A stretch of DNA of 64,000 nt, taken from Mytilus galloprovincialis. Taxonomy: Eukaryota > Mollusca > Bivalvia > Mytilida > Mytilidae. The notes beneath the pieces are model-generated. The model made no database searches. It was not told where the DNA came from and saw nothing but the letters and a program-made list of their open reading frames with translations. A program made the translations under genes and the position numbers. Of this stretch, positions 3,183 through 56,917 are shown in pieces (position 1 is the first letter of the stretch; the number at the start of each line of letters is the position of its first letter). The stretch spans positions 92,227,795 through 92,291,794 of the forward strand of contig NC_134843.1 in the NCBI RefSeq assembly GCF_965363235.1, written 5' to 3'.

Positions 3183-3287
3183 TTTATTAAATATTAAACA
3201 ATTATTTAAAAAAAAAACGCAAAAGAAATTGAGGGATATTTCAATATCCTTGTATATATGCATAACAATATAGTGAATAAGGGTTAC

Positions 3288-28759: not shown

Positions 28760-31700
28760 TCAAAGCCTATCAGCAGCACAGCTGGAAAATACACACCACA
28801 TGTAGCTCAAGGCACCTATTAAAATGAAGTCACAAGTATCCATCAATACATGAACATATTTATTTATAGTATAACTAATCGCCGTATTTGAATATCAAAA
28901 ATAAGACAACGCGTGACCGAACGACGCATGGATTAAACGAGTGCGCAGCACGAGTTTAATCCATAGCGGCGTTCGGTCACAAGTTGTCTTATTTTTGATA
29001 TTCAAATACGGCGATTAGTTATTCTTTTTATTACATTGGCAAATGGCTTTTTTTTAATGAAATTAATGTAGAAAATGTAAGGAACTATATCTTTTTCCTA
29101 CGCATTGACAATTTGTTTTGATCCGACGTTATCGACGTCTTGACAACGCCTATTGTTGTATGACGTCAGAGAGTGAAATAACCACGTTTATTTCACATGT
29201 GAAATTATCGGTTTTTATTTAACTGGGAAATCAATGTAATTCATTGCAACCAATGTAATAAACCTTTATAATGGTCATCAAGTGATTATTTAAGACATTT
29301 GCTTTGTTATTAACAAGCTTTCAATAAAAACTTTCAACAAATTAGGCGCAAATCTTAGAAAAAAAATAAACATATTTAGAAAACCTGGTCCATATTTAAA
29401 ATATAATCTAAGAGTTTCAAGAGTTGAAAGTTTCTTATTTTCTATTTAATAATATATTTTTGAATACGCAAACATAATTTCGCATTATATGAAGTGATAT
29501 TTAGCGCAAAACTTACTGGATGAAGTGAAATCTGCATCTAAAACACAAGAAGAGCAAATTACCAATTTACCACAAAGAAACAATCAACTTTAATAGCATA
29601 CACGTTAAATGGAAACATAAAAGAAGCTATATAAAACTATTATCAATAAAGATGAACAAAGGGAGGTCAAGGATATACGTCAATTAGACAGCAACAGGTA
29701 TGTCATCCGATGGTTGAATATTTATAACCGACCTATTTAGAAATTTTACATTCAATTAGTTAAAATCATACATTTTCAACAAAAAAGGTAAATTCAAATA
29801 AAACATTGAAAACATACAAATCTGATAATATTTATGTTTGATCGATAGATAAAAAAGATGATAGCAGTAATATTGTCACATTGCATCGATTTTAATCTAT
29901 AAATCCATGGAAAAGTTGTAATGAGAAGAGTTTCAATCCACACACATCCCGAATTTTATATCTTAAAGTTTTGTGTCTTTCAAATGTTAAGGCCAGCGAA
30001 AAGATATCAACTTTTTAGTTTGACAAAAATAAAAGGGGAAGAGAAAAGTTAATTAAGTTATTCATATTGTTCATATGAAATGTTAGTAGTATGGCTATCA
30101 AAAGATATGCTGCTTGTTTTCCTCCATTTTACCTAAAATGTCTCAATTCAATTGCAGAATGATTTTTTTTCTTAAATTAATCAGTTTTCATTTCCTTTCT
30201 ATGCATAGTCATTTACAATTTAAGGTATTTGATATGTATACAATATCATTGTTTGATATGCAAGTTTGTCAGATTTCAGGCCCTATAACAATATCTATTA
30301 AACAAATTGACAACGTATAATGCAAAGTTCATAATATTGTGTTCTTACAAGTGTAAAAATAGAACACATCAAAATTTAACCACTTCTGTTTTTCTAAAAA
30401 AGTGTCAGAATAACTCTCCACTAAATCATTACAGCTAACATTATACCTATCATTGTTTTACATGTAATTTCAAAGATAATGATAAAATGATGTAATGAAG
30501 TACCTCTCCGCAGCTTTTTTATGACAGGAGAAACTGTAGCATGCATTGACCTGTAATCTTTACAAAACGCTGCAACTTTGTGTCCAGCTAAAGCCTTTAC
30601 TTCGTCATAGGTCATTTTAGTATTCACGATGTTTAGAATGTGGTCATGCACCTCGGTGGTCCATCCCTGTATAAAGATAATCTCGCATAAAATTTAACAA
30701 AATGAGGATTTTCTTCTCATGAAAATGCCATTTGTAACCTTATTATGTCCTCCTACCAAATAATTTATACTTCACTTTAACTGAAAAATTGCTTTATCTA
30801 CATACATGCCTTTAAAGTGTTTACACAATTAGAAAAAAAAATCATATAAACTTACGATTCTGTATTTTCTGTCAGATGCCATGGGTACGGGTGATTTCGT
30901 GATAATACAAGTTTGCTTGTTTATATTTTTCAGCGCACCGTAACCCTGCAAATTTAAATGTATTTGTCTAAATGAGAAATTCAACGCAACATACGTTCCA
31001 TTAAGAATATTTACATGTTTATATCTATTCAATTTTTTTTTATGTTCATTTATACTTCCAATAAAATCATAAAAAAACAATTGAAGGCAATTAAAGTCTG
31101 TAAATTATTTCTTGTTTAGCCTTGTTTATTAATAATATAAGTTATGAACTCAATAAACTGATAATATTGTTATCAATACTCTTCAGTTACTTAACTATAT
31201 ATTCATACCGTGCTATAATCGTGAAAATTGACTGTCGGGACGCCATTCTTGTATTTACAAACGTCGCCAACAATAGCAATGACAGTCTTTTCTTCGGTAT
31301 CATGTATAACATCCATAGCCACTTTGCGTCCCATATGGTCGATTTCAATCAGGTGGTTTACCTGTAAAGTCATAAGAAAAATTCAGAATTTTTTATGCAC
31401 AAAAAATGTGACAGTATAATTAACCGATAATTAATCTTGACGCATTTAATAGAAGACAAGTATGAATACTATATGAAAGGCTCTAAATACACTGAGGCTA
31501 TACGAGTTTTGCAAAAGACTATTAAATAATTGTCATTGAAATCAATTTTGTTCAAGGATAACGTTTCCAAACACAAAAAAGTTATTAAAGACAACCATTG
31601 ACAAGGATACTAACTTGAATGTTAACAAATTTAGTTGATTATAAAACAAAATATAATTAACGTACTCATTGATGTGAATTGTTTTTAGAAACAAGTAATT

Positions 31701-31865
31701 ATGGTTTTGTATACATTGTTCGTATTATTTTTTTATTTGAAGTGCTTTACTAGCAGCACAGCAATCAATGATTATTCAAAATTTACTCAAAATTCGAAAA
31801 TAATAACTTACCTCTGGAATAGCCTTCACATAAACGAACATCAATGTCACTATTCCAATAATCAT
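28760..31865 (-). CDS. BRICHOS-A: secreted BRICHOS-domain proprotein with C-terminal CX4C tail
   Basis: Six coding exons, all GT-AG: 31865-31812, 31361-31209, 30945-30856, 30666-30504, 29537-29517 and 28815-28760 (stop TGA). The product has 178 residues. The first exon is the signal peptide MIIGIVTLMFVYVKAIPE. Residues about 60-140 fit BRICHOS: FHDY (Asp 66), INKQTC (Cys 82) and AAFCKDY (Cys 134). KLRR (150-153) is a furin-type site, and a cut there would release 25 residues (DADFTSSSA, then the SYMWCVFSSC core). BRICHOS domains chaperone beta-prone segments of their own proproteins in the secretory pathway; that this tail is the client is inference. Cys 53 is absent from the two paralogues. 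Residues 84-99 match B and C closely, whereas the last exon is shorter and ends in AADRL. An AATAAA lies within 15 nt of the stop. A 150-bp palindrome sits in the last intron. Confidence 0.85.
28872..29021. repeat. near-perfect 150-bp palindrome in BRICHOS-A intron 5
   Basis: The left arm TAACTAATCGCCGTATTTGA, continuing through 'taagacaac' and 'gtgaccgaac', is mirrored by 'gttcggtcac', 'gttgtctta' and TCAAATACGGCGATTAGTTA. The centre (GATTAAAC...GTTTAATC) is also self-complementary. It would form a very stable cruciform or, in the pre-mRNA, a hairpin. It may be a fold-back transposable element. Confidence 0.9.
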
Positions 31866-34800
31866 GATGATGGTTTTGACGAAAGATATCTGTAAACATT
31901 AAAAAGAAAGAGGTTCCAATCTTTGAAATGAAAATTAAATGTTTCGTATAATTAAAACTTGTATTAATGATAATATCTACATCTTTTAAATATAAAACAG
32001 AAATGAATGATCTTTAAAAATTTTTAATTATGAAAATTATTATTTCACGGTTAAATTATAAAATCTAAATTTAAGAATTGATCACTTTGTATTTAATTTT
32101 AAAAAAACGGAAAAGGGAATTAAAATGTTTGTACTCACAGGTTTAAAGAGTTTTATCATAATTGCATTTTTATTTTTTAGAATGGAACTTATATAAGTTT
32201 ATTTTTCTACCTATATTTGGAAATCTATTCAAAATTCTGTCACGACATATTGTTTACTTCATATGTTGCACGCTAATTTTTAACTCTAATCTAAAAAAAA
32301 AAAAAGATAGATTACCTTCTTGTTGACACATAATTAATAACATCAATAAAAAATAAATAAACTCGTTTCGATTTTCAGGGTACCTGTTCTTTTTTTATAG
32401 GGTTCTTTTAAAATTTTGTAATTAAATGATAAAAAAAAAGAATTCTATTGATAAAAAAGGCCTTATCGATAGATGTTGGATGTAATCTTCCTGTATGAAT
32501 TGACTAAAGATGTTTATATTTGCACATTTAAGGTTTAATGTTATTCTTATCTTCATATTTCGCTAGACAGTGCCATGACAGAGGGCTCATCATTGTATAA
32601 AATTGTATGCAATTTTGACTCCTTTAGAATCCTTGACTTCACTGCTGGAAATATAAATGCCATCTTCGTGTTGTTCTTGAAATCGTTTTATGAGAAATTT
32701 TTATAAAGGTTCAATAAATGTATCTTGATTTTTTTAATCGGTTTTGTGCTTTGTTTGTATTTTTGTTTATATAAATTGTCTTATTCATAGTTTAAAAAAC
32801 AAGAATAAACTGGGTTTTTTTTCCTTGAAAGAAATTAGTTTCCATTGTATAAGATCATATGTATAAAGGGAAATGTGAGGTAAACATTAGTGAAACGAAA
32901 ACCTTATCACAATAATAACCAGAAGACATTTAGTGTGCATCATTTAGTTTTCAACAAAAGACAGGTGTATAAACACCCTGGAAAGCTCTAAATTGTCCGG
33001 ATTCCATTAAACGTGAAGAATTATTAATACATTGAACAGAAACTATCAAATATTTGCCATAAACACCGACTTTTTTCAAATAATGAAAAACATTAAGAGG
33101 TGACAAACGACAACTACTCTCAAGATTCTAAACTCTTCCCCTCTTTGTAGATTACAAATCGTACATCGAATATACAATTAAAACCAGTACAGGAATACAA
33201 TAAAGGTATAATAGATAACAAAATCACAATTTCATACAGCAAAGTCCTAAAAAGAAGAGAAAGTCATGATCATGAGCCATGGTCAAACCAATGTATTTAC
33301 AGAAAAACTATCATTAAGCGATGTTGTCACAAAACGAACATGATAACCTGGTTGAACCACAATAGTATAACAATAACATCTATCAATAAATCTTTTATGC
33401 CAACGAGACATGTTTGCTTGCACTGATAATGACTTTATATGAAATAAACTCGTATATACATCTAATTAGACTGCAGGACAGCATGGTGTTTGATGCCAAT
33501 ATATTGAAATTCCAATACATCATACAAATATCGGACAGTTGATGAAATATACGGACCAACATGATAACCCAACCCGACCATAGATTGTTCATATAAAATT
33601 CATTATACTGGTAATATTCATTCTACGTGATGTTTGTCTATTCAAGACTTGACATTATGCTTCTGGACTAACTTTTGATGTCTTTGTTAGCTTACCATTA
33701 TATGTTCATAAAATGTGTTTTGCATGACATGGATTATAAATTTTGGAAATTCACTGTTACTTTCGTATAATAAATATTCTCTGTACTACTGATTTTTTTC
33801 ATTCTTATTATTACAGGATGTTATTTATACATGATTTCAATATGACTTTAAAACAGTTAAGTCTTTCTCTTTCCGGGATCAACGAAACAATTTTTGAATG
33901 AGAAAAATGAGAGGATGTTTACCCCGGAATGATGTTTGTAAAGGTATCATTAATATATCATCTATATCATATTCATTATAAGCTCAGTTCTATATTCATC
34001 AACTATTGATTTTGCTTTTCAACTATTTTGATTCAATTGTCACTGATAACTCTTATTTTGAAAATATGAGCGACTGGCTTTTCAAGTTTTAATCCTGTTA
34101 TCATGAATGAGTTTTCTGTCCTCCGCCTTCCTCTTTCTACGTATATGATTGTGTTTGGTAAATGTTGATTTTTATGAGAAAAACGTCTATTTCAGTCTCC
34201 CAGCAATTGCGCACTAATACTGTACATCAAACCGAAACAACAGTCACGTAACCGGTAGGTCCGTGTTAAATTTGGTTGATTTAGATAATTTTATTTTTAA
34301 GAAATTTAGTTATTATCCTGTTACTCATATTCAATGTCTTGTTTTGTTTAAAAAAAACCATGCACAATGATATAGAGGACAAATAAAAACTGTTCAGCAT
34401 CACGCTACCAATAAAATTCGGACATGAATACAACGACCGTCAAAACCCATTTGTCAGTCAATTTACGAAAAACAAAAAAATCCTATATATGTTTTTACAG
34501 ATTTTCCCTCTATCATCTGTTAAATTCAAGCGCATCTTTTTATTTGTATGGTTAATTAGACGCTTTAATGGATTTGGGAACAATTGAAATACATTTCAAA
34601 TCATCAGACATTTAAACGATTGTCAATATAGAACTCCAACTACTAATAACAGAAAAGTGAGTTTCGTAAATTTCCAAAGCAAAATACTTTAAAATTCAAA
34701 AGTTATCAAAAATAAAGAGCTTATAAACCTAAGTAGACAAAAAGTATAGCCCAAGAGAAGCAATTGACTGTGAAATTATGGTTTATTCATTCAAAAATAA

Positions 34801-34920
34801 CACTATCATAGTTCGAATATAACCCTGAAATTAACTTTTTTCAATTCATTTATATAACAATATTTTAATATAAAATTTCGTTCCATTGAATTATAAAACA
34901 TGATGATTAGAATTATCTTT
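31866..34920. other. upstream region of BRICHOS-A and gene-free stretch
   Basis: Immediately upstream of the BRICHOS-A start the minus strand shows a plausible acceptor (ttttaatgtttacag, near 31880-31895), which suggests a non-coding leader exon further right. Beyond that I see no gene or recognised element. Confidence 0.4.
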
Positions 34921-34924
34921 GACA

Positions 34925-35445
34925 AGTAAAGGCAACAGTAGTATGTCGCTGTTAAAAAGTCATAAATTAATTGAGAGGGTAACAATTTAAAACGGAGGGA
35001 AACACATCAGCAAAAGCATACGCCAAAATACATAGAAACGAACTATTTGATAACAACTGCCATTTTACTGATTGGTACTCGACATTTGAAGACAAAAATA
35101 GTGGGTTGAACCTAGTTTTATGACTAGCCAAACCTTCCGTTTTTCAAAGATACACGAGACGACTTAGAATTTTGAATTAATCAATGTCCCTCACCTTAGT
35201 AGCATAATAACAACTTCACATACATATTGGACACACAGTGCCTAACTCATTCGGTATTCAAGAGCTCGCAACTGCTAATCAAATATTGTCAAAAGTCACC
35301 AGTGTCTGAGCAGAAAGTTGATGAACCAGTGGTGTGTTAAAGATCGTTTCGCCCTTTTTTTTTTAAGTTCATCTGAAGATACCAAAACCTGGTTGATAAA
35401 TATTCTGTATCTAATTTACATATAATACAAGATAGTATTGAAGTA
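34925..35445 (+). mobile_element. R7 fragment followed by a reverse-transcriptase remnant
   Basis: R7 ('aaaggcaacagtagtatgtc') runs from 34925 to about 35045. From about 35160 the sequence matches the C-terminal part of the 16.1-17.1 kb element, as 'actcattcggtattcaagag' and 'agaaagttgatgaaccagtg' show. Both loci have the same R7-then-retroelement order. An old, broken copy. Confidence 0.5.
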
Positions 35446-35454
35446 TAGATTCTA

Positions 35455-35905
35455 GGTACTGACGTTGTATATCGTATCCATCTTACGTGGCTCTGTACTT
35501 ACATCCCGTTATTTTATTGTTGCGTTATTGTAATTTTTTTGTGTTCCTGTCTATCGTTTTTGCAAATGGGCTTTGTCTTTATGCCATTTTATTTCTTTAA
35601 TGACGTTTTTGCTAGGTTTTGTAGTGATTACGATTATAACACAATGTACCTTACCTTTATGCAATGACTGATGTACCCTTACATTTGACATTTTTAACCT
35701 ATTATGTATGTCTGTTTTGTTCACACAATCTTGTCAATATAATGGCATTTTATGCGACTGACATACAAGTGAGAGATTTAACTTGCTATTAACTTGCTAT
35801 AAAACCTGGTATAATCCACCATTTCTACATCAGAAAGTGTCTGTACCAAGTCAGCAATATGACAGTTGTAATCCATTCGTTTGATGTGTTAGGGCTTTTG
35901 ATTTT
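35455..35905 (+). repeat. dispersed repeat R4
   Basis: 'gacgttgtatatcgtatcca', 'tacttacatcccgttatttt', 'tgttcacacaatcttgtcaa', and the 3' words 'aagtcagcaatatgacagtt' and 'gtaatccattcgtttgatgt'. Confidence 0.6.
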
Positions 35906-37370: not shown

Positions 37371-37374
37371 AGAT

Positions 37375-37640
37375 ACCAGGATTATTTTTTTTTATTTACG
37401 CCAGACGCGCGTTGCGTCTACAAAAGACTCATCAGTGACGCTCGAATCCAAAAAAATAAAAAAGGCCAAAAAAAAAAGTATGAACTTGAAGAGCATTGAG
37501 GAGCAAAATTCCTAAACATTTCCCAATTACTGCTAAGGTAATCTATTCCGGAGACAGATCTTTCATTGTTTATGTTAAATTCATTCACAGCTTGTTTAGG
37601 TTCGGATCGGTTCATAACTTGATATCGTTCTGTTGTTAAA
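37375..37640 (-). repeat. dispersed repeat R5, reverse orientation
   Basis: 'cgccagacgcgcgttgcgtc' and 'aaaagactcatcagtgacgc', followed by 'aacttgaagagcattgagga' and 'ctaaggtaatctattccgga'. The same order and strand recur at 59725-59915, which defines a unit of about 200 bp. Confidence 0.65.
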
Positions 37641-38227: not shown

Positions 38228-38830
38228 AAAACTAGAGGCTCTCAAGAGCCTGTATCGCTCACCTGACTTTTCAAGGATTTTTGAAATTATATAGAAAAAG
38301 ATAAAATTTGGCTACAAAGTAACAACACTTGGCCAGCACCTAAAGAGGCAAGAAACAAACATGTTTGGTTTCATTCAATTCAGTGGTTCTCTAAAAGAAG
38401 TCATTTGTATGCATTTCCCATAGGGTCCTATGTTAAACTAACCCCCCTTCTGGCTGCCATCTTGGATGATGGATCGGGCACAAAGTAACAACACTTGGTC
38501 AGCACTTCATAGGGAACATTCATGCCATGTTTGGTTTCATTCCATTCAGTGGTTATCTAAAAGAAGTCATTTGTATGCATTTCCCATAGGTTCCTATGTT
38601 ATCTAAGTCCCCCGCTGGCGGCCATTTTGGAAGACAGATCGGCTACAAAGTAACAACACTTGGTCAGCACCTCATAAGGAACATTCATGCCATGTTTGGT
38701 TTCATTCCATTCAGTGGTTCTCTAGAAGAAGTTCAAAATGTAAAAAAAATTAACGACGACGACGACGACGGACGACGGACGCCAAGTGATGAGAAAAGCT
38801 CACTTGGCCCTTCGGGCCAGGTGAGCTAAT
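38228..38830 (+). mobile_element. element R6 with three internal tandem units
   Basis: Begins 'ctagaggctctcaagagcct' and 'gtatcgctcacctg', and ends 'acttggcccttcgggccagg' and 'tgagctaata', so the ends carry the inverted words 'gctcacctg' and 'caggtgagc'. The body has three tandem units of about 165 bp, each starting 'acaaagtaacaacacttgg' (about 38314, 38477 and 38645). The right end has a run of GAC triplets. A second member lies at 57149-58258. Non-autonomous; class unknown. Confidence 0.75.
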
Positions 38831-39780: not shown

Positions 39781-39784
39781 CGGG

Positions 39785-40753: not shown

Positions 40754-43700
40754 TTATTTTCCTAAAGCAGAATCTAAGGCTGCGGTATTGACAAAACAAG
40801 TTGAAATTACACACCACATGTAGGACACTGAAAAAGATTACAAGTCATAAAAAAATTGTATTTTGTTATCACATTATCAAATAAATATATTTGAAAATAT
40901 CACATGTAGTCAATATATTAAACATGAAGAAAAAAATAAAATAAAAAGGATATATTTAAAACTGAATACAGAAACAGTATATATACTGTGCATAATTCGA
41001 AACACGTGCACTTGTTCTTTACTGATTGTATCCGAGTTCATTAAATGACTTTTAGAGAAGGAGGAAGTTAAACATGTTAAATGTTGGTAATGTCTATATA
41101 GTTTTATAAAATAATACACAAAATGTAACAGTAGTTTGCTATGTTCTATTTTATGTAAATTAAACTTACTACTAGATCCAGCATCATCTGCATCTAAAAT
41201 AAGATGTTTTTTTATTATTTACGTCCAAGTAAATTAACTATGAGAAAAAAGATAAAACGGCAGATGTAGTCCTTTTATTGTTCTGTACACTTGTCAATAA
41301 AGTATGTTCTTTCTTTTAACTTAAAGTTATGTAAAATTTGTAGTTGTGGAAGTTTTTTTTAGTTTGCATTCATATTGATTTTATTGCGACGCATATATTT
41401 TCTCAGCATTTTAACCAGATAATTAATGCAACAGAAACGAAAAAGTGATTGAAAGCTAAATGTTTGTATTAAAGCGATTTCGGTTGCAAACGAAGCAATT
41501 ATCATGGTGAAGAAAAATTATAAAAAGTTAATACATATCTAATATTAAAACGAATTAAAAAAAACTACGCGTTTGAGAAATAGATAACATAAAAGTACCT
41601 CGTCGCTGTTTATTTCCAGGGGTGATATCAGCGTATAGTGATGTGTAATCTTTACAAAATGCTGCTACTTTTGGTCCAGCTAATGTTTTAACGTCGTCAT
41701 ACGTCAATTTCCTGGGTACTAAACTTAGGATGTGATCATGAACCTCAGTGGTAATACCCTGTGTTATTATGTTTATAAATGAGTTTTAAGTTAATTTCTA
41801 TAAAAATCAAAGCATGTCATGAACATATTGATATAAAGTAAATACTTTAAGGCTTACGTGTATTATTTTGGATATCATTGTAATACTCATATAGTATTAT
41901 CTCTTTAAATATGCTCAACTGTCTTTATGAATCTACGAAAAATCTTTGCCGCATAACAACCGTAAAGATTATCATCGTTTTTTGTTTTATTTGTACATTT
42001 CATCTGGTAAATCATTTATCTTGTTTTTCTAATTTCCTATATTTTAGTAAATCATTTACCTTTTTTTCTAATTTCATCTAATTTGTATGCATATGTTTAA
42101 ATCAATTCAAATCAATAAGATTGATAACAACATATAAAAACTCCGAGGTTGCAATACAAATAAAAACTTACGACTCTGTATTGCTTGTCTGTTCCCATTG
42201 GTACTGGAGATTTCGTTATAACACAAGTCTGTTTGTTAATATCTTTAAGTGCGCCATAACCCTGTAAATGACCACTAGTATTGTAATTATATAGGGAAAA
42301 CCGTACTAATACATTTTCCCAGCACTAGGTTGGCCTTTTGTGTACCCAAGGCAGGTGAAGGAAGTCAAATTAGTAGGGCTGTGATTGGATGTAAGCGTAA
42401 AATATATTTTTTTATTTATCTATGAATAACTGCAGTGTGTATATTTACCATATAAATTTTGAAACCTATTGAAATATTTTCTAGAGAATTATTCGAAAAG
42501 ACTTCCAAAATCTGATCAATTTGGTGCAAAATGACGGTGGGCATGAATAACATAAACCAGCTCCGTTGAAAGTTGGTCATGATACTATTTGGCTTTCATT
42601 TTTAAAACGGAATAATAAAGTACTAACACCACATATAACTGTTTTATCCAGGTTTTTGTCATAAAAAGTGGTAAATTCAGAAAATGTTAATATTGTCGCC
42701 TATGGCAGAATAAATAGTACGGTTTTCCCTATACTGAAGATAGCAAGGGAATCAAAGTCCATCAGACTTCAATTCTTTTATTCTATTTTGAAGCTTTTGA
42801 TTAGTACATTTGTTTTTTATCACAAAGAATAGAAATTTGAATAGGCGATTAAGGTAGGAGTGATTTCTCATTTAATGACAGAAGTGGGGTTTTTTTCTCT
42901 CCTAAGGGAAGAAGGAATCACTTAATACTAGTATGTGTATTGGGTTTTTTTTTCGGAACAATATACACAACCATTATAGTAAAGGAACAACTACAAAATA
43001 TTAATCCATACTAAAGGATATTTTATCTGCTACATAAATCGTGGGAGACCTCCTTGCATTAGTAGCATTTTACCAACACATGTCTTGTTTTAGTCGCAAT
43101 GACTACATAAGTTAGCCGCCTACCAAACCAATAATAATAACAAAAACAACAACAACAACAACAACCATAAGAATTGGTTAATCTATATATATAATAGGCT
43201 ATTTGCCAATTCCCGTAATTGACCCTGTAATTATAGATCCCTATTTTTGTTGTCTCCCTTTATGAGGGACATTATTTTTTATTTACAATGGAGAGCTAGC
43301 AGAAAGAGCAAATTTACCTGTGCGTAATGTGAGTAATCTATAAGGTTTTCTAATCTTTGAATAACATTAATTTGTTGTTTAGTTAAATACTTTTGACATC
43401 AGAAGTTATTTTTCATGAAAAATTAGTTAAACCGCCGATACATCACATTCAATTCATCATGCTTTGCGTTGGCGAAAGCCAATTTTGTCCGGTATGGAAC
43501 CAATCTACGATTGACAAAGGGAAGTAATTTGTTTAAAAGTGTGTAATAACAGAATCAAATCGGTAATTGGCAAATGGACTATTGAATGCTGCTTTTTCTC
43601 AATTCCAACGAATAAAATAATTATCGTCACTATCTTTTTTGGGGGCTATAATTTTTTAATAAAGACTGTTTCAGTAAATCTCTTTAGCCATACTTACGGT

Positions 43701-44968
43701 CTTATAATCGTGGAAATTAACTGTTTGGATGCCATTCTTGTATTTAGATACATCCCCAACTATAGCCAGGACAGTTTTGTCCTCAGAGTCATGTATCACA
43801 TCCATAGCCACTGTGTGTCCTTGGTGATCAATTTCTATTAAATGGTTGACCTGGGATAATAATAGATAAATATTTCGTTTAAAAACGCTGATATTCCGTG
43901 AAATAAGTTAGTAACCAATTGACAAATGATGTCATATATGTGTGAATTTTGAAAACATGTTTCAAATGTAGCCACATGAAAGAACAACATAAATTGGTTT
44001 GTTATTTTGTAAATTGTACCTAATTTTGTTTGGAAATTGGCGTAAGTCAATAATAATTCCTCAAAATATCAAAATATCAAAAATCTAATTTGAATTTTAA
44101 TTTGTAATATAAGAACTAAAATGTTTTGTTCATAACAATAACTTTTTTTATGCAACTAGAATAAAACATTCAAGGGAAAAAATAAAGAAAAGCATTTAAA
44201 TTTATGCACATTTTATCAAAAAACTTTTGTAATGAAATATTTTGAATATTTTACAAGATAATAACTTTTTGAGCAATCTTAATTTCTAAATGGGTTTTTT
44301 TTCTAGAGAAATAGTAATTGCTGTTGAAGAGACCAATTAGTATTTTTCCGTTGATTTTTTTTGGGTTTTGCATATGTATTAACCGCGAAATTGTCCTACG
44401 GATATCGCTGACGGCAAAAGGGTGGTTAATGGTTATTGTGCCACGGTTCCAAATGTCGTGGCGAACAATGACGATGTTTATACTGATAATTATGAGAATT
44501 CTGCTACAATAGCCACTAGTAGCAATGTCCAACCTACTATTATGAGTTAGTCCCAAATGATGTCAAATTCTTGCTTTTGTGTATTACTATATTCAAAAAT
44601 TAGGGGAAATGTTACAATAAATTGTATCAGTAACTGAAAATAAATATATAAGAAATGTGATCAATCATTTTAGATTTTACCTGTTGTGGTTAATTAAATA
44701 CTAGTAGTTATAATTGAACGTTTTTCTCTTTTCTATAGAGCTTTAATATGTGATAAATAGACTATATTTACCCTAGTATCCTCTCTCGACCAATATCGGC
44801 CCTCGTCTAAAGCCTCCGATTGATATGTGAGTCTCGTGAAAATACCAGGGCAAATATGGAAAAGGGCATGTAATAATCTATGATTGTTTCAAATACGGAA
44901 AACTATTTACTCACTTCTGGGACAGCTCCAACACTAACAAGCAATAATACAACTAATCCAAGTATCAT
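40754..44968 (-). CDS. BRICHOS-B: secreted BRICHOS-domain proprotein with C-terminal CX4C tail
   Basis: Six coding exons: 44968-44915, 43850-43698, 42261-42172, 41758-41599, 41193-41170 and 40827-40754 (stop TAA). The product has 184 residues. The signal peptide is MILGLVVLLLVSVGAVPE. The BRICHOS region has TVNFHDY (Asp 66), KDINKQTC (Cys 82) and VAAFCKDYTSLYADI (Cys 134). NKQRR ends exon 4. A cut there would free 32 residues: the acidic linker DADDAGSSM, then SYMWCVISTC and FVNTAALDSALGK. The third exon encodes exactly the same 30 residues as BRICHOS-C; exons 2 and 4 differ by about five or six residues each. Intron phases are 0,0,0,1,1. Start choice: the ATG follows an acceptor-like 'ctcttttag' on the minus strand, so a leader exon is likely. 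Intron 2 carries two MITEs. The gene is divergent with BRICHOS-C. Function is unknown; the domain call is firm. Confidence 0.88.
42290..42733. mobile_element. MITE in BRICHOS-B intron 2
   Basis: Perfect 19-bp inverted ends: TATAGGGAAAACCGTACTA and TAGTACGGTTTTCCCTATA. The length is about 444 bp. Non-coding; no clear target duplication. Confidence 0.8.
43138..43166. repeat. AAC microsatellite
   Basis: Short run of CAA/AAC triplets in BRICHOS-B intron 2. Confidence 0.8.
43190..43585. mobile_element. second inverted-repeat element in BRICHOS-B intron 2
   Basis: The left end 'aggctatttgccaattcccg' is mirrored by 'cggtaattggcaaatggact' at the right, imperfect arms of about 25 bp, total about 395 bp. 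It contains no coding sequence and ends about 110 bp from exon 2. Confidence 0.6.
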
Positions 44969-45300
44969 GGTTTTGTCTAAAAGAGATAAAAACAAAAACA
45001 TATATTACAGCATAAACGTCGTCAAAATGATATTTTGTTTATGGTGCTGGTCTTTCCGTAATACTAGTGTGAATGTCAAAATAAATCATTCGTATGCTGT
45101 ACTTACAGTTAAAAGCTCAATACTAAATGATTATAATCTTTAGAACTGCTATTTGAATTTATAGGAAAATTACCAAAATTAAATACGTCATATTAAAGTG
45201 AGTAATTGCAACATTGATAACCTTTCCAATTTTTCGTCGTGGCAGTATTCAATTTCAACATCAGATGTTGCTTTATAATATAGACGCAATACCAGGAACT
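44969..45300 (-). promoter_or_regulatory. BRICHOS-B upstream region (left arm of inverted duplication)
   Basis: Read on the minus strand, this contains a TATA-like TATATTATAAAG (near 45275-45287), then 'aatactgccacgacgaaa', 'caatgttgcaattactcac' and 'aatatgacgta', and finally 'gtttatgctgtaatatatg' shortly before the start. The same order occurs upstream of BRICHOS-C. Core-promoter function is inferred from position and conservation. Confidence 0.5.
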
Positions 45301-47464
45301 GTTCATTTTAAAGGGAACTTGAAAAATTAAATTACACTTTCTGTTATTCACATTTTAGTACAAATTGACATCTGTATCTTAAATTGCTGATTCAATGGTA
45401 ATGGAAAGAAATTATATTTATTTGTTCATTTGTCACGTTTTAGGTCTTGTGTTTAATGAAACCTCAAAGTATGCATATTTGTTGAAACAAAAAACAATTT
45501 CCCTGGGTTCAGTATTTTTGTGATTTTACTTTATACCATATATGTTCTTGTAATACCTGTATTACAAAGGTTGAGAAATATAAATTTTCTTGAACTTTGG
45601 CCGTCCTTGTGGCTGTTCAGAACTTAAACGCAGACAGGTCTATTCGGAAAAACGGTAAATATCGTGCATCGTGTAGGTTGAATGCCAAGCTATTTGCTGG
45701 TAACACTTGTCACAACCATCTGGAGACTTCGTACGTGATCTGTTGCGCAAAAAAGTATCTGCCCTTTCCCACAAACCCTCTTCCTGCAGTGGCAGTCCAG
45801 ATTTCCCAATATTCATACCAGTCGATATACCTTTCAGAATCTATCAATTGTGTTAAGACGTAAAACAAGCAACGATCAATCAATCATGTTCTGTATAAGG
45901 TTGTATTAAATAGAATGTGTTTTACGCGTGTGACTAAATATGTATGGCTTAAGGGAATTCATACTTATTTTCTAAATTAATCCTTTATTTTGCAACGGGC
46001 AATTTACAAAAGTGGGGTTTTTTTTATATATAAAAATCCCCGTCAGTGGCTTAGCACTGATGACTGATTTGATGATACCCTAAAAGACTAACATCCCATC
46101 AGTAGTGATTCCAAGTCGATATTCATATAAAAATGCAACGACTTTTATGTATTAAGATACCCTTTGACAATGAGTAAGAGTAAGAGCGATATATTCGAAA
46201 TCTATTCAATAAAGCATATTTTATCTTTAGCATCGGTTCTAGATTCTAGATTCTTTAATGGCGCTCGAATTAAAACTGTCTATGTTGCATGTGTTGCTGG
46301 TGTTACCTAGAACTATGTTTGGTATGATTAAATGTATTGGATTTTTGTCACATTTGTTGGACATATCTGATATCAAATTGTAACACTAATGGTATAAAAC
46401 GATCAATAACAGCTGGTCAGGGTTTATTTATAAAAAGTTGTAACCTTCAAAGAAATTTTCTTGGAATACAATATGGAATTAGATTTGATTGTCTGAATAA
46501 CACAACCCAATCGTAGCAAAATAAATTCATGTATAAGCTTAAAGCTGAAAATCTATAAAGTTAAAAATGTACATAGTTTGAATTAAGGCAGAGGTATATT
46601 ACATATCTACCTACCAAAGATATGATAACAAAAAACAACCATCAAATATAAATAGAATAAGTAAATTACTGAGGTGTTTATGCATACGTCTATTAAAAGT
46701 GTTTCCATAGCTTTCCTTTGAAGTATAGATTTTCTTTAGAACGACTGGGTTTTTACTTTTGAATCTGTATTTCATTTGTGTAGATAACAGCAACAGTAGT
46801 ATACCGCTGTTTAAAGTCAAAGACAGATTTAGAAAAAAAAATCATGGTTACAAACCAAAACCGAGGGAAACACATTTACTATAAGAGGAAAACAAAGGAA
46901 CAACAGGAACACTGAAGTTATATTTGAAAGAACCCTCATTAAGAGAACATGCATTATAGATTATTGATCGCTTAACGTCCATCGGCAATTATATCGAGCA
47001 TATTTAGCACGATAACAAATAAAAAACTTATATATATTGATTATGCAAAAAAAAAAAGATATTATGCTGGAAAGCGACATTTATATGGCATGCAAGAGGT
47101 CTCCTTTGGAATCATCAGAGAGTTGCTGAAAGGGTTATTTTACGTTCTGAGAGCATAGCATTTCCCCTATAGAAACAGAAGTTCAGAGATGTTCTATATT
47201 GCCTTGTTACGCTCTTTTCCACGTTCACTATTTTTGACAATTATGTCTCATTCCTATACTTTGGAACGTTGATCCACCCTAGCCATGACCCTTTTAGTAC
47301 ATATCTGGTTTATAATCATAAGCGGTGAAAAAGTTTCCTCATTCCATCAAATATCTCTGAAGATTTAACAAAAAAAAAACTGATTAAAATCGATTTAGGC
47401 AAATGTGAAATAATTTATCAATTCTCACTAAAACAACTGATTTCTAAAATTAAACAATTCCAGT
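45301..47464. other. spacer between the two inverted arms
   Basis: No supported gene. It holds an R4 3' scrap near 45490-45535, an R7 fragment ('cagcaacagtagtataccgc', 46785-46920) and a diverged relative of the 11.7 kb repeat at about 46955-47180. The frame at 45597-45863 has no recognisable family. Confidence 0.45.
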
Positions 47465-47802
47465 ATTGAGTTTCATATAATACTGTAACACCTGACGCCG
47501 AAAAGAACTGCCACGACGAAAGTTCACGGAATTGTGTCCAATGTTGCAATTACTCACTTTTATATGACGTATTATGTTATGTTAATATAAATTTAAATGC
47601 ATGCAATGTTCATTCCAAAGATTATAATCATTCAGCGCTGATAATTTAAATGTAAGTACAAACATTAGTATCATTCATTTTGACATGTATATATCTTCAC
47701 AATGGAAACGCCATAACACTGAATAAACAATTATTCTGGTGTCGTTTATGCTGTTATATAAATGTTTTTGAAATTATCTTTTTTAAGCTCAAAACCAAGA
47801 CC
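47465..47802 (+). promoter_or_regulatory. BRICHOS-C upstream region (right arm of inverted duplication)
   Basis: Plus-strand counterpart of the BRICHOS-B upstream block: 'ttcatataatactgtaac', 'gaactgccacgacgaaag', 'ccaatgttgcaattactcac', 'tatatgacgta', 'aaagattataatcattcag' and 'cgtttatgctgttatataaa'. The acceptor-like 'cttttttaag' lies just before the start codon. The shared words make this the best place to look for the common promoter. Confidence 0.5.
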
Positions 47803-50800
47803 ATGATAATTGGATTAGTCACATTGTTGCTTGTAAGTGTGGGAGCAAGCCCTGAAGTGAGTAAATAGTTTACCGTATTTTTTAACATTAATTTTATTCG
47901 TTGTCTTTTCAAACTTCAGTAGTGTCTTTGACATAACAGCGGCAATACTTTTGAACTCAATAACAGCGACAATACTTTTAAACTATTAAATAAAAGCGGC
48001 AATACTTTTGAGATAAAAAAAAAAAAAAAAAAAAAACAGTGGCAATACTTTGGAACTAAATAATAGCGGCAATGCTTTGGAATTAGATAATAGCGACAAT
48101 ACGTTTGAACTTAATAACAGCAACAATAGTTTTGAACTAGGTAACAGTAGAAAACACTTTTCGGATTTTTTTTTTTTTTTTAAATGCTCTAAATATATAT
48201 TTCTAAAACATTTTAAGGTAGCACTCCACAGTAAGGTGTGTAGTTTCGCATTTTGGTCCCTGTGGATTTTTCAAATATGATAGCTAGTGTGCAATAAAAT
48301 TCATTTTTGGATAGCTGAGTATTAAAATAGCCTTTGTATTTGGTTTATATGAACATCGAGGTCATGTAATGTATGTAATATAGGCTGTTTTCTGTATGAC
48401 AGTCCGTATTTGCATGTCCATACCATACATTGGTCCGGCAATTATTGTAATGTTTTTTTTCAACTTTTTTTCGGACGAACTTTGTAATTGGATTTTACGA
48501 AAAAATTAGGCGAAAGACACCCATTTTTTATTTGATCATTAGGAAGATTAGTGTCAACAGTTTCTAAAAAGGTATCACTCAAAGGCATTGAAATTCTAGT
48601 TTGATTCAAATGTTGGGGGGTATGTGACATGTTCACCCCCCCCCCCCCCCCCACCCTTTCTGCTATACTTTATGGTAAATAAATGCAGAATGTTGCCATG
48701 GATACACATAAAAGGAATTATTTTTCACCATTTTAACTTTTAAAAATCAAATCTATGGAAGATACTGATTATACATATGCACTTGGACAGCACAAACAGT
48801 TAAGTTAATGTATTAGAAATCTAGGAATAGGAGATGATAAAACATTTTGTGGCTCATTTTTTAATTTTATTTTCTTACTGTAGAGTGCTACCTAAACAAG
48901 AACATATATGCACCTGAGATCACCCCTAGTTTTTTGGTGGGGTTCGTGTTGTTTATTCTTTAGTTTTCTATGGTGTGTCGTGTGTACTATTATTATTTGT
49001 TTGTTTGTCTTACTCATTTTTAGCCATACTGTTGTCAGTTTATTTTCGAACTATTAGTTTGAATGTCCCTTTGGCATTTTTCGCTCCTCTGTTAGATAAG
49101 ATGTTTCAACCGGTCTGACAAATAAACAACCGTCCTATAATGGTTCACGTTAAGAAGTTGTGTCTTGGATGGAGAATCGTCTCATTGTCACTTATACCAC
49201 ATTTTCTCATATCTAGTTTTGAAATGCCACAACCTAATGTACAGTGTTAAAAGTTCTTACAGTTATTTAATCAATTAGCAGATTTTGTTTCCAGTGATTA
49301 AAGTATTTTTAATTTTTGCACAGGTTAACCACTTAGTAGAAATTGATCATCAAGGATGCACAGTAGCTATGGATGTGATACATGACTCTAGTGCCAAAAC
49401 TGTACTGGCTATTGTTGGGGATGTTTCTAAATACAAGAATGGCATCCAAACAGTTAATTTCCACGATTATAATACAGTATGCATATGTATAGAAAAAATA
49501 AAGGAACAGTTATTTAATGAAAAGTATTTCCATATCAAACCTTATGATAAAGACTTTGCTTTTTCAAATATATAGCATTACTCAGAATGCATTACTTTCT
49601 TAAACAGTGAATTGTCAATGGAATGTTATTTCTTATTACTTTTTACTGCTTTAGAAAATAAATACAAAATCCCTAACTCTGACAACTTAATGATTTGTTA
49701 AATTGTGTTAACAAAAGACAGCATTTAGTAACAAAATTCATTTAACGATTCTGCTCGTCTTTCACAGGGTTATGGTGCACTTAAAGACATTAATAAACAG
49801 ACATGTGTTATAACAAAATCTCCAGTACCAATGGGAACTGACAAGCAATACAGAGTCGTAAGTTTTTATTTGAAATTCAACGTCGGATGTGTTATTTTAA
49901 TTCTTTTTAATCTTATGTATTTGAAGAATCATATATATATATATAATCATAAAAATTAGAGGGAAACTGCAAAGTGTTTTAAAATACGACGCACAAATAT
50001 AACGAACACTGATACTAATCTAAAACAATTGACAGATGGCTATAATCAAAATATAATAGTGATCATCATTTTGTTAGATTCATCAAGAAGTTTTGAAAAA
50101 AATGATAATATATGATTCTTCACAATATTCACAAAACTTTTAGACAGTTACCTCAACGAATTGTACAAAATCAATGCATGTATTTTATTCTGTGGTTTAC
50201 GTTCTCATATGTTATAATTATAATTATAATTATAACACAGGGTATAACCACTGAGGTTCATGATCACGTCCTTAATTTAGTACCTAGAACATTGACGTAT
50301 GACGACGTTAAAACGTTAGCTGGACCAAAGGTAGCGACGTTTTGTAAAGATTACACATCACTATATGCTGACATCACCAAAGCCAACAAACAGAGGAGAG
50401 GTAAGTTCTATGAACTTTACATTGGTGATACCACAGTTATAAACCATGCTGGTCAATTTTGATAGTTTATTTATAAACGCTCTTGTTAGATAATTTTTAC
50501 TTCATTTAGATAGGGGAAATTCCGTCCGCATATTGCCGCTGTCCGCAATTAGGCGAATTTCCCCTAATGTTTTATCATTCTTCAAACGATATGTTTACAC
50601 AAATACTTTAATTTCAAAGCTCATTGCCAGTTCTGTTGCATTATTTATCTGGTTACACTGCTGAGAAAATAAATGCGTAGCATTCACGGTCATAAAACTG
50701 ACAACGAGAAAAGTTTATAGCAACTTTATTCACGGCATTATTTTGTTTATACACAGTTCTGGCTTACAGGAAAACCCGACATTGTTAGAAAATACTAATA

Positions 50801-53800: not shown

Positions 53801-56800
53801 CACATAAAAGAGATTGTTATACAAGGCTCTAAGATGGAACACTTCTTCTTTTGGACACATACATTGTATATTCTTATTTAACACTAGAAGTATGCACTAA
53901 ATTTCCTTTAACACAGTTTGTTCACCCAGAGTCAAAATTGTTGACGTTGTGATGATGAGGGAAAAAATGGGCTTGGGAATGAATTTATAATGATTTTTTG
54001 GGATATTTCAAAATAATTTTAGGGATATGGGATATTTGTAAAAAATAATTATTGGGATATTAGGGACGACATCAAAAGATCGATGTAGGATAAAAAACTT
54101 AAATCAAATAGTTTGGGGGTGGGGGGGTCAACACTGCTGCAAGTTTTGTTAATCTAAAATCGATTTTACATATATCCCTATTGGTCAATCAATTTTTCCC
54201 AAATTAAGTTAAGAGGGGGGGGTGGGTGGGGGGGTCAACACTGCTGCAAGTTTTGTTAATCTAAAATCGATTTTACATATATCCCTATTGGTCAATCAAT
54301 TTTTCCCAAATTAAGTTAAGAGGGGGGGGGGGTGTGGGGGTCAGTGGAAAAACTATGTGAATTAAGTTTTTTATCCTTCATTGAACTTTTGATGTCGTCC
54401 CTTAGGGGTAAACATTATAGGGATACGGGATATTAAGATAAAAACTTAATGGGATATGGGATATTGATACCCCCCCCCCCCCCTAAACAAGCCTCGCTAT
54501 CTGATAAAAAGTAAACTGAAAAAACTCTAATTATCATTCAAACGAATGTTTTCGAGTATTCTCTTTTTAACGATTAACGTGCAGTGAAAATAAATTTTGT
54601 AACGTCGATGTTATTATCGCCGTCATCTTGTTTACATTGGTTACGAAAAGAAATTCGGTCAACGTCGTCTATCGAAAAATAACCAACGTCAAGATCAGAT
54701 CAGATCAACTACCGGAAGTTCTTTAGACCAATCATATCAACGTATTTCCCTAATATGCAAATCCTATAAGAATTGTTGCTATACAGGGGCGTAGCTACCC
54801 GGAGGCACGACAGCACGTGCATCCACGTCGTTTTCACAAAAAAAAAAAAAAAAAAAAAGAAAAAAAAAGAAAGAAAAAAAAAGCAGAAGAGAGAGAGATG
54901 AGTTTGTCAATCGGAATCGGAGACTGTTGGTGTCTTTTCCGTCTATCCCGGATATTAGTTTGACAACCTAGTTACAAGTGTTGATGAAGCTGTTCATTCA
55001 GAAAAAGATCGTAGCTCCGAAGTTGCGTGCACATTGATTCGGCATGCAAAAAAAGAAATGGCAAAATAAAAAATTATAAATTGAATGTTAAAGGAAACAC
55101 CTATGTTGTCACTTTTTTTAATTGATGAAATATCATTAGATAACGACATTTGGTTTCAAAATAATTTTTTTTTTTGGAGATAATGACAAAATCGGAAGGT
55201 TACTTGTATCTTTTACAAGATTTTTACTTTTGAATTTGTAATACTCAGTCTATTCTAAGATATGTAGTTTTGGAGCACATTTTACAGTGTACAGTTTATC
55301 AGTTTGGAATGAGATGTACCAATCGGCATTAGAATTATCAGATCCCTTCGATATCGTTGAAAATATGCCGAGCCAATCACCCTGCAACCACGCCAAAACA
55401 GTATTGGAAAGTCTCATTATTTTTTGCGTTCATAGACCATATGATATGGCAACTGGAGAGTGGAGTCGCGTCAAGTTATCAGAAAATCGCTTCTTTGTGC
55501 TGTATCTCACGGTTTCATCGTGTTGTAGGAAATATCACAAACGAACAAATCTCAATATTGTCTGAAACATACGAAACTGACCTAGCATGTAATTTTGACG
55601 AATTCAATTGGGAGGTCGCTCGATGCTGAACACGTACGCTGGTTTATAACATCTCGCGAGTGCTACCATGCCATGATGGCCCTGAGATCAAATGTACAAA
55701 TGTACGATCAACAATGAACAACGAAAGTTACATAGCATTACCATGATTACTGCATGTTCATCGGCATTTCAGTGTGAATGTTGACAAAGTAATAGAGAAG
55801 TTTGTTTCTGCCCAGACCCGAAGAGCAGATTTTGGACAATTTTGAGTAAATTCTGTATCACAAATATTTGTTGTTTATGTATTACTATATTCAGAAGATT
55901 TATTAATAGTTTTACATTCATAAATTTTTATCTACATATAGCTCCTCTTTTAACCGTCCTATGACCGAAAACCGAAAAAAAAAATTCTGCATAATAGGGT
56001 CCCAAAAATTTTTCGCCTCGCTACGATCGGCGGTAGTTACTTCCACATCGTTTCTTTCTAGCTACGCCCCTGCTATATATATTATACGCCGTGGTTTGAC
56101 TATCCACAAAACCAGTTTCAACCAACTATTTGGTTTTTTTAAAATCTCCTGTATCAAGTCAAGAATATGACAGGTGTTATCGATAGTCCATGTCTATGTA
56201 TGTTGGCGATCGTTTTGTTGCAGTTAAGTATGTCTGTTGTTCCATTGTTTTCCTCTTATAGTTGATAGGTTTTTATTGGTTTTAGTTCCTTCCCTGGATA
56301 TTCCTTAATCGATTTATTACTTATAAACAGCGGTATACATATATGGCCTTTCTTTGAAACGTACACCCAATATTTCAAAATGGCTGTTTCGCATTTTTTT
56401 GTTTTTGATGTTTAATATCGCCGAACTGTAATTTGTGACATGTAACAATTATTTTTATTTTAGATGCAGATGATGCTGGATCTAGTAGTAAGTTAAACTT
56501 CAAATTCAGTTTGATATGTCATATGCCAAAATAAGTATTCGAAGATTTAATGAAAACCACTGATTTCAATTATTGAATCAACATCTTTTAATCAAATGGA
56601 TAGACATGAACGTATTTTCAACGTCCAGTATCTCAAAACGTTATTTACATTCATAAACTCTAGCTGGTTGTAAAAGTTCTTGGAAAATAAAATCTTAAAA
56701 AGTATTTATTTCATAAAATCCATAATATATTATTTTTTTCTCTCTTTGTCAATTTATTTATTGACTACATATCCGGTATCTTATATGTAATTATGCAATG

Positions 56801-56917
56801 ATGAAAGTTCTATATTTTTTTTAATGGATTACACTTTTATTTTTAGTGTCCTATATGTGGTGTGTCATTTCCAGATGTATAGTCAATACCTCAGCTTTCG
56901 ATACTGCAATGGAATAA
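47803..56917 (+). CDS. BRICHOS-C: secreted BRICHOS-domain proprotein with C-terminal CX4C tail
   Basis: Six coding exons: 47803-47856, 49324-49476, 49768-49857, 50241-50400, 56464-56487 and 56847-56917 (stop TAA, overlapping an AATAAA). The product has 183 residues: signal peptide MIIGLVTLLLVSVGASPE, BRICHOS with NFHDY (Asp 66), KDINKQTC (Cys 82) and VATFCKDYTSLYADI (Cys 134), then NKQRR (148-152), the linker DADDAGSSM and the tail SYMWCVISRC followed by IVNTSAFDTAME. Intron phases are as in A and B. The exon 2 donor is the weaker GTATGC, where B has GTAAGT. Cys 30 is extra compared with A (Arg) and B (His). Intron 1 holds a minisatellite and element E48. Intron 4 is 6 kb and carries many nested elements, which explains the 9.1 kb span. 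If released at KQRR the tail peptide has 31 residues and a net negative charge, so a classic cationic antimicrobial role is not evident. Confidence 0.88.
47938..48155. repeat. minisatellite, unit about 27-30 bp, in BRICHOS-C intron 1
   Basis: About eight units of the pattern 'agcggcaatacttttgaact' plus 'aaataac', interrupted by a poly-A run near 48017-48039. The later units have a 30-bp period and keep an open frame (MELNNSGNALELDNSDNTFE and onward), which is an artefact of the period being divisible by three. Confidence 0.85.
48214..48892. mobile_element. element E48, about 0.68 kb with inverted ends, in BRICHOS-C intron 1
   Basis: The left end TTTAAGGTAGCACTCCACAG and the right end CTGTAGAGTGCTACCTAAA form imperfect inverted repeats of about 20 bp. 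The body matches 17150-17760 in order. It contains a poly-C run at about 48637-48653. A non-autonomous DNA element. Confidence 0.75.
48908..49210 (-). repeat. R1 (reverse) followed by an R2-like 3' scrap
   Basis: R1 reversed: 'ctgagatcacccctag', 'gtggggttcgtgttgtttat', 'gccatactgttgtcagttta'. Then 'ggatggagaatcgtctcatt' and 'cacttataccaca', which resemble the R2 end. In BRICHOS-C intron 1. Confidence 0.55.
50508..50567. repeat. short fold-back in BRICHOS-C intron 4
   Basis: 'taggggaaattc' and 'gaatttcccctaa' are inverted ends about 60 bp apart. Inside, 'gtccgcatattgccgct' is followed by 'gtccgcaatt', a short direct repeat. Confidence 0.55.
50848..51085 (+). repeat. dispersed repeat R1 in BRICHOS-C intron 4
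   Basis: 'aagagggacgaaagatacaa', 'gggacggtcaaactcataga', 'catcgccatggctaaaaata', 'ggtgctccggaagggtaagc', with the end near 'cccacacgtggcacccgtcg'. Confidence 0.7.
51190..51440 (+). repeat. R4-variant repeat
   Basis: 'gtcgtcaatacatgggaggt', 'gtaatgcactattatgtcat' and 'gtgttgtcattttagcggta'. It resembles the R4-variant head at 60945-61100. Confidence 0.4.
51960..52330 (+). mobile_element. broken retroelement, reverse-transcriptase C-terminal part
   Basis: Reads LIVNFPFLDDDVPLALSYSV and CISQHLRYARVCCNVLDFNE, matching the 'VNFPF...PAYGVYISQLIRYARAC' block of the 10.8 kb element. Sequence to about 52520 continues the element, and R2 follows at 52540. An old, broken copy. Confidence 0.6.
52540..52930 (+). 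repeat. dispersed repeat R2, best copy
   Basis: 'atcccgctaacatgtttaac', 'tccctgtccaaagtcaggag', 'gtacggtgacctatagttgt', 'ttgtgaagagttgtctcatt', 'ggcaatcataccacatcta'. It lies directly downstream of reverse-transcriptase remains in the same orientation, so it is probably that element's 3' UTR. Confidence 0.65.
53100..53665. mobile_element. fold-back DNA element with arms of about 100 bp
   Basis: The left arm near 53150-53235 ('caacggctgttttgccagac', 'aagctgagccgagggacgtc') is the reverse complement of 53525-53612 ('gacgtcccacagtctcagct', 'tgtctggcaaaacagccgtt'), with weaker matching further out. The overlapping open frames on both strands (53376-53743) are by-products. Confidence 0.7.
54061..54407. 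mobile_element. MITE with GGGACGACATCAAAAG ends and an internal duplication
   Basis: The left end GGGACGACATCAAAAGATCG with 'taggataaaaaacttaa' is mirrored at the right ('ttaagttttttatcc', CTTTTGATGTCGTCCC). Inside are two near-identical tandem units of about 110 bp, each 'gtcaacactgctgcaagttt' to 'cccaaattaagttaagaggg'. Interposed G-runs range up to about 13 bases. Confidence 0.8.
54784..56072 (+). mobile_element. hAT-family DNA transposon remnant (P52rIPK-like transposase)
   Basis: The ends CAGGGGCGTAGCTA and TAGCTACGCCCCTG are perfect 14-bp inverted repeats, typical of hAT elements. The flanks 'gctata' and 'ctatat' hint at a target duplication. Inside, around 55270-55640, two overlapping plus-strand frames give transposase-like sequence: RANHPATTPKQYWKVSLFFA with FIDHMIWQLES, and NITNEQISILSE with FDEFNWEVARC. 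The switch between frames shows a frameshift. The rest of the transposase is gone, so it is inactive. In BRICHOS-C intron 4, about 390 bp upstream of exon 5. Confidence 0.75.
56155..56345 (-). repeat. R4 3' end joined to reversed R7
   Basis: 'caagtcaagaatatgacagg' then 'ttttcctcttatagttgata', with 'ataaacagcggtatacatat' at the end. The same junction is seen near 61190-61335. Confidence 0.45.

Follow-up and report, generated by a model that had tools for sequence, protein, structure and literature searches.

Three mussel genes for secreted-looking BRICHOS-like proproteins with a conserved cysteine-loop tail, members of a family found in bivalves

A 64,000-nucleotide stretch of the Mytilus galloprovincialis genome (contig NC_134843.1, positions 92,227,795 to 92,291,794; here called the window) contains three related spliced genes, g1, g2 and g3, whose products look like secreted precursors made of a BRICHOS-like domain and a two-cysteine C-terminal tail. 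The genes lie within positions 28760-56917 and were rebuilt from the raw sequence. g1 and g2 are on the minus strand and g3 is on the plus strand, with g2 and g3 in a head-to-head arrangement. All three consist of six coding exons with start phases 0, 0, 0, 0, 1 and 1, and GT-AG ends were found in 15 of 15 coding introns. This agrees with an earlier reading of the locus (the original prediction), which had described three six-exon genes of equal phase. The g3 product is identical to LOC143078417 (NCBI; P0001 among the family proteins described below) in 183/183 residues, and that of g1, taken from an inner Met, is identical to the annotated M. galloprovincialis protein P0003 in 178/178 residues. 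The predicted splicing was thus right and the genes were already annotated, so that the statement that they are missed does not apply to the existing annotation, where they are named as uncharacterized or hypothetical proteins. For g2, the only match is a partial annotated model (P0009), which agrees over g2 residues 1 to 99, after which it leaves out exon 4. The g1 product would be 15 residues longer with a possible further exon upstream (32159-32139); the Mytilus coruscus protein P0014 has a longer start similar to that of g1 with this exon.

The similarity between g2 and g3 extends to their 5' regions (72% over 439 columns), whose alignment points to a probable common noncoding first exon ending at the GTAAGTAC donor. 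The 24-nt linker exons of these two genes are identical in sequence, and the surrounding 46-bp block is 95.7% identical. As the linker exon has phase 1-1, the frame would be kept if it were skipped. No copies in addition to g1, g2 and g3 were found in the window by tblastn (E of ≤0.01) with the spliced products of these genes and 28 family members as queries. The other matches involved only the odd N terminus of P0027 (9965-10102 and 39779-39859) or only the N terminus of P0009 (47863-47961).

The domain order also is as originally proposed: a hydrophobic start, the BRICHOS-like domain, a basic site (KQRR in g2 and g3 and KLRR in g1), a linker beginning with DAD, and a C-x4-C tail. The hydrophobic starts end in V-x-A before S/V/I-P-E, and by this reading those of g1, g2 and g3 look like cleavable signals. 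g1 and P0014 may have longer hydrophobic starts, and g1 with its upstream exon may instead begin with an anchor. Comparison of the paralogues revealed that g2 and g3 are identical at 162 of 183 residues, while g1 matches g3 at 8 of 10 residues of the tail core and at 53 of 74 residues of the BRICHOS core. The suggestion that the tail core is conserved while the paralogues differ elsewhere therefore describes g1 but not the g2/g3 pair, which is alike throughout. Nonsynonymous (dN) and synonymous (dS) divergence between g2 and g3 were 0.071 and 0.461 overall and 0.030 and 0.373 in the domain core; both genes look constrained.

A search with g3 as the query, and then with growing alignments, identified 28 family proteins, 27 of which have a named source; all 27 are from bivalves, and one protein is unlabelled. 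The search reaches only relatives that share short words with the query, so it does not follow that the family is absent outside bivalves. The members come from M. galloprovincialis (5), M. californianus (5), M. edulis (2), M. coruscus (1), Mercenaria (4), Ruditapes (3), Mya (5) and Dreissena (2), plus the unlabelled protein. Several species have more than one family gene, and four M. californianus loci are numbered closely (LOC127701606, 608, 609 and 611) and lie on contigs of equal length. P0004 and P0007, annotated as isoforms X3 and X1 of M. californianus LOC127701608, differ from signal to tail and look like merged tandem copies. In a tree of 27 rows, 10 of the 24 inner branches were well supported. 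g2 and g3 grouped with M. californianus LOC127701609 (97/95), g1 paired with P0014 of M. coruscus (97/90), and LOC127701611 joined these two (100/97). Three alignments were used. The smallest (A1) has 9 rows and excludes the partial P0009. The second (A2) has 25 rows, g2 not among them, and excludes the partial models P0009 and P0027 and the later-found P0028; counts out of 25 refer to it. The third (A3, 22 rows) also is without P0008, P0014, P0022 and P0025, which are odd or truncated models, and includes P0028.

Pfam analysis identified BRICHOS as the best match for all three proteins (E of 3.9e-4, 4.9e-4 and 0.026 against the whole library, with g3 at about 4e-4) and matched it to 20 of the 25 aligned members at an E of ≤1. 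The hidden Markov model search suggested by the original prediction thus gave a significant best match, but the PF04089 scores of g3, g2 and g1 (21, 20.7 and 15.2 bits) fall below the curated cutoff of 25 bits, as do those of the best of the 25 members (P0001, 21 bits) and the family consensus (21.5 bits). For this reason, we label the domain BRICHOS-like and do not file it as a Pfam member. Further inspection of the primary structures revealed the hallmark residues of the fold: Asp66 is kept in 24 of the 25 proteins, Cys82 in 23 and Cys134 in 25, and the D-x15-C spacing is kept in 22. Cys82 is missing from P0008 and Asp66 from P0011, and P0014 is without the stretch that holds Cys82; these deviations may be model errors or changed copies. 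In 97% of single BRICHOS domains, strand 2 is described as ending in a conserved Asp (PMC9627735). For proSP-C, D105 and a C121-C189 bond are given (PMC9627735, PMC8983781), so that Asp and first Cys are 16 positions apart, the same spacing as in the bivalve proteins.

AlphaFold models of the mussel protein (g3) and a clam member had mean pLDDT (predicted local distance difference test) values of 84.9 and 84.2. The mussel model contains strands at 18-25, 31-39, 44-51, 62-66, 71-76, 81-86, 106-117 and 138-146 and helices at 119-126 and 128-133. Compared by order along the chain, both predicted models follow the strand order published for BRICHOS, i.e., beta1', 2', 1-4, 4' and 5 with helix 2 (PMC9714404). 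Asp66 closes strand 62-66; Cys82 lies in strand 81-86 and Cys134 just after helix 128-133, in agreement with the positions of the BRICHOS Cys pair in strand 4 and helix 2, and the two residues may form a bond. Two sets of weaker matches were taken as chance: Pfam "Fve," found on a short stretch of 11 of the 25 members below its cutoff (best E of 0.0037), and the best PDB sequence matches (E of 0.32, 0.36 and 0.022).

The tail is the second conserved element. The pattern WCxx[ST]xC occurs in 22 of the 25 aligned proteins; the three exceptions are a protein with F in place of W and two gene models without a tail. Counted by residue, the W is present in 22, the Cys residues in 23 each and the Ser in 22. 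Both Cys columns are occupied by Cys in all 22 rows of A3, although P0028 lacks [WF]C-x4-C and fits only with a gap. The longer motif SYMWCVxSxC, which had been put forward as a conserved unit and expected in other bivalves, was rejected in that form. Its core, W-C-x-x-S-x-C, does extend through mussels and clams, but SYMWC is present in only 4 of 25 proteins (and in g2, which lies outside the alignment). In A3, mean information was 3.38 bits for W165 to C171 and 3.07 bits for residues 61-146, compared with 1.77 bits in the linker, 1.54 in SYM and 1.75 in the residues that follow the loop. The seven residues W-C-x-x-S-x-C therefore stand alone between variable flanks and are about as conserved as the domain. 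We also considered and rejected the idea that conservation peaks in the tail, as window 165-171 ranks 36th among 177 windows and the eight highest-ranking ones begin at 63-72, within the domain. Exactly four Cys residues are found in 16 of the 25 proteins and five in g3 and g1 (whole chains, signal included), and the simplest pairing would join the two domain Cys residues to each other and likewise the two loop Cys residues. The g3 model places short strands at 161-166 and 169-174, at the Cys loop, and the clam model also has two short strands there.

A pattern search was used for putative convertase sites, and the charge of the predicted peptides was calculated for the 24 proteins with a recognizable loop (23 of the 28 found, plus g2). 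A basic convertase-type site precedes the tail in 20 of the 24, although those in P0023 (RK) and P0024 (KR, where the domain ends) are questionable. The peptides predicted to be released from these 20 have 20 to 39 residues and a net charge of -4 to +1; 19 of them are neutral to acidic and one is positive. The positions of the elements described above are listed in Table 1.

Table 1. Positions in the window of g1, g2 and g3, their exons and the related upstream regions
Feature	Position	Strand	Basis
g1, secreted-looking BRICHOS-like proprotein gene	28760..32159	-	Exon assembly; 178 aa from inner Met (193 aa if 32159-32139 is coding)
g1 exon, hydrophobic signal-like segment MIIGIVTLMFVYVKA then IPE	31812..31889	-	Exon assembly; aligned with g2/g3 start
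g1 exon, N-terminal strands of BRICHOS-like domain and conserved Asp	31209..31361	-	Assembly, alignment (P0003)
g1 exon, BRICHOS-like core, first conserved Cys	30856..30945	-	Assembly, alignment (P0003)
g1 exon, BRICHOS-like core, second conserved Cys and KLRR site	30504..30666	-	Assembly, alignment (P0003)
g1 21-nt linker exon, DADFTSS	29517..29537	-	Exon assembly
g1 tail exon, SALSYMWCVFSSCAADRL then stop (stop codon ends at 28760)	28760..28815	-	Exon assembly
g2, secreted-looking BRICHOS-like proprotein gene, 184 aa; coding exons 44968-44915, 43850-43698, 42261-42172, 41758-41599, 41193-41170, 40827-40754	40754..44968	-	Exon assembly; partial model P0009
g2 24-nt linker exon, DADDAGSS	41170..41193	-	Exon assembly
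g2 tail exon, MSYMWCVISTCFVNTAALDSALGK then stop	40754..40827	-	Exon assembly
g2 upstream region, homologous to that of g3; shared probable noncoding first exon, GTAAGTAC donor	44891..45309	-	Alignment
g3 (LOC143078417), secreted-looking BRICHOS-like proprotein gene, 183 aa	47803..56917	+	Exon assembly; identity to P0001
g3 signal-like exon, MIIGLVTLLLVSVGA then SPE	47803..47856	+	Exon assembly
g3 exon, N-terminal strands and conserved Asp66	49324..49476	+	Assembly, model, alignment
g3 exon, core with Cys82	49768..49857	+	Assembly, alignment
g3 exon, core with Cys134 and KQRR site	50241..50400	+	Assembly, alignment
g3 24-nt linker exon, DADDAGSS, phase 1-1	56464..56487	+	Exon assembly
g3 tail exon, MSYMWCVISRCIVNTSAFDTAME then stop; Cys166 and Cys171	56847..56917	+	Exon assembly
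g3 upstream region, homologous to that of g2	47447..47880	+	Alignment

Other features of the window include several repeats. The last intron of g1 holds an inverted repeat (28868-29025; 60-nt arms, 93% complementary) that looks like a small transposon. In g3, 27-bp tandem repeats occupy 47933-48147, in the intron after the signal-like exon, and the 6-kb fourth coding intron contains 2.2 copies of a 107-bp unit (54115-54343, 97% matches) flanked by 53-nt inverted-repeat arms at 54062-54114 and 54350-54402 (whole element, 54062-54402). A 165-bp tandem repeat (2.6 copies, 38310-38732) lies between g1 and g2, and at 62476-62899 there is an AT-rich array whose units, of 21 to 43 bp, contain AGATATCT. 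An open reading frame at 2911-3183 on the minus strand has a signal-like start and a Cys-rich end and matches Pfam Macin with 42.3 bits (cutoff, 27); judged by this match, it encodes an antimicrobial peptide of the macin type, and it lies some 26 kb away from g1.

The explanation that we favor, and consider probable, is that the cluster belongs to a bivalve family of small secreted proproteins with a divergent BRICHOS domain that release a conserved noncationic Cys-loop peptide. It builds on the gene structure, domain order, conserved Asp and Cys residues, loop and frequent, nonuniversal basic site read from the sequences and on the strand order of the domain and the two short strands at the loop as predicted by the models. 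To this extent, the original prediction of a secreted-looking BRICHOS-like proprotein with a basic site and a two-Cys C-terminal segment, kept in other bivalves, is supported. The signal peptide would send the chain into the secretory pathway and presumably be removed there. The divergent domain, with its strands, one Asp and one Cys pair, would fold first and, by analogy with BRICHOS proproteins, may hold the hydrophobic tail and prevent its aggregation. The tail would close a six-residue disulfide loop within W-C-x-x-S-x-C. In most members, a proprotein convertase would then cut after the basic site, and the product would be a freed, mostly neutral to acidic peptide of about 20 to 39 residues, which may be active as such.

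Besides the Pfam scores below the cutoff, several results weigh against this explanation. Those that concern release point to an alternative in which the tail is never freed. In this view, the protein would be secreted and gastrokine-like, with the loop as a fixed part of its fold, and the basic residues would be incidental or mark only a nick. Gastrokines GKN1-3 are small, secreted, single-domain BRICHOS proteins, a layout like that of the bivalve proteins; no gastrokine was among the 28 family proteins found, and no direct comparison was made. The loop (22 of 25) is kept more widely than the Arg just before the linker (18 of 25), and four of the 24 tails have no basic site, so that some members may retain the tail. 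The models also are fairly confident in the tail (block means of 82 to 85 in g3 and of 68, 84 and 87 in the clam protein). However, the linker that follows the site is variable and modelled with low confidence (55 for block 151-160; below 50 for clam residues 152-161). Moreover, 17 of 20 letters in the Arg column of A3 are Arg (3.57 bits), and within residues 147-183 only the W, C, S and C columns of the loop are better conserved. We regard a permanently attached tail as unlikely for the family, less so than the two alternatives that follow.

The first of these is a special case of release, with which it shares part of its likelihood: the genes would encode bivalve antimicrobial precursors of the arenicin, alvinellacin or nicomicin kind that yield membrane-active peptides. 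The annelid precursors (nicomicin above all, but also arenicin, alvinellacin and capitellacin) resemble the bivalve proteins in having a signal peptide, a BRICHOS domain, a dibasic site and a C-terminal disulfide peptide. Nicomicin-1 is described as a cationic peptide of 33 residues with a Cys24-Cys29 loop (PMC6265681). By loop size, this makes it the nearest known client, with a C-x4-C loop equal to that of the bivalve tail, and a six-residue loop behind a BRICHOS domain thus is not new in itself. The nicomicin-1 loop was absent from the comparisons of the original prediction. Several genes per species and the macin-type gene in the same window also are consistent with an antimicrobial role. 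In addition, a 2014 study reports that a "BRICHOS domain-containing protein" was upregulated in the digestive gland of mussels fed a toxic alga, among transcripts that also include a defensin-like protein (PMC4203926); this transcript may or may not come from g1, g2 or g3. In contrast to these likenesses, Heteromastus BRICHOS-linked peptides are reported to be enriched in positive charge (PMC10745061), and the annelid peptides are described as cationic, whereas all but one of the 20 peptides predicted for bivalves are neutral to acidic. The arenicin-type parallel drawn by the original prediction is for this reason not supported. The domains differ as well: in alvinellacin, the BRICHOS domain diversifies alongside a fixed peptide (PMC5431198), whereas the g2/g3 domain core is constrained. 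Overall, we consider a membrane-active peptide improbable.

The second, to which we give an equally low standing, is that the domain belongs to the wider ependymin/LolA-like half-barrel fold instead of BRICHOS and carries a lipid or other hydrophobic ligand. The best Foldseek hits were ependymin-related chains (E of 5.2e-3, probability of 1.00), and ependymin-related and LolA entries head the VIA lists. On the other side, Pfam ependymin matched none of the 25 members at an E of ≤1, compared with 20 for BRICHOS, and the aligned identity of the mussel model to the BRICHOS entries 2yad (20%) and 8ovi (18%) is higher than to any ependymin or LolA row (≤12%). The clam model shows no such gap (13% and 8% to 2yad and 8ovi and 12 to 16% to ependymin rows).

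Two further BRICHOS systems bear on a releasing proprotein. ITM2 proteins are type II membrane proteins in which the peptide cysteines are wider apart; this anchoring differs from the bivalve starts, which resemble cleavable signals. The parallel with ITM2B/Bri2 drawn by the original prediction holds at the level of layout (a BRICHOS domain, a furin-type site and a C-terminal part with one disulfide). The mature polypeptide of ITM2B/Bri2, with its single disulfide, has been modelled in the groove of the domain (PMC9714404). The same source presents OAF as a divergent BRICHOS relative, recognized by model and profile comparison, with a signal, a convertase site, disulfide-linked mature strands, a domain disulfide and the conserved Asp. 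OAF corresponds to PF14941 and, unlike the bivalve family, has a longer mature part with four disulfides (PMC9714404). PF14941 had no match among the 25 family members.

More tentatively, the family may represent a bivalve-specific class of BRICHOS client: a mostly acidic to neutral, hydrophobic peptide with a six-residue disulfide loop, whose role would be that of a mucosal factor or secreted signal rather than of an antimicrobial that breaks membranes. The loop of this proposed class is kept in mussels and clams while its flanks vary freely, and there often are several genes per species. In the literature examined, the invertebrate clients described are cationic annelid antimicrobials (PMC10745061, PMC6265681), and BRICHOS antimicrobial peptides are stated to occur in polychaetes only (PMC9756803). 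A mostly noncationic loop family extending from mussels to clams is not described in the parts of the BRICHOS literature consulted (mollusc, Mytilus, bivalve, evolution and invertebrate), and a literature search for six family locus tags found no paper. The precursors stay "uncharacterized" because the tail core is in a short final exon of its own and the domain scores below the Pfam cutoff.

BRICHOS domains are studied as anti-amyloid chaperones. If a noncationic loop peptide is indeed released, BRICHOS domains would escort noncationic cyclic peptides outside vertebrates. The bivalve family offers a natural setting in which to test what properties a client must have for a BRICHOS domain, and it may hint at a hitherto unknown class of peptides that bivalves secrete.

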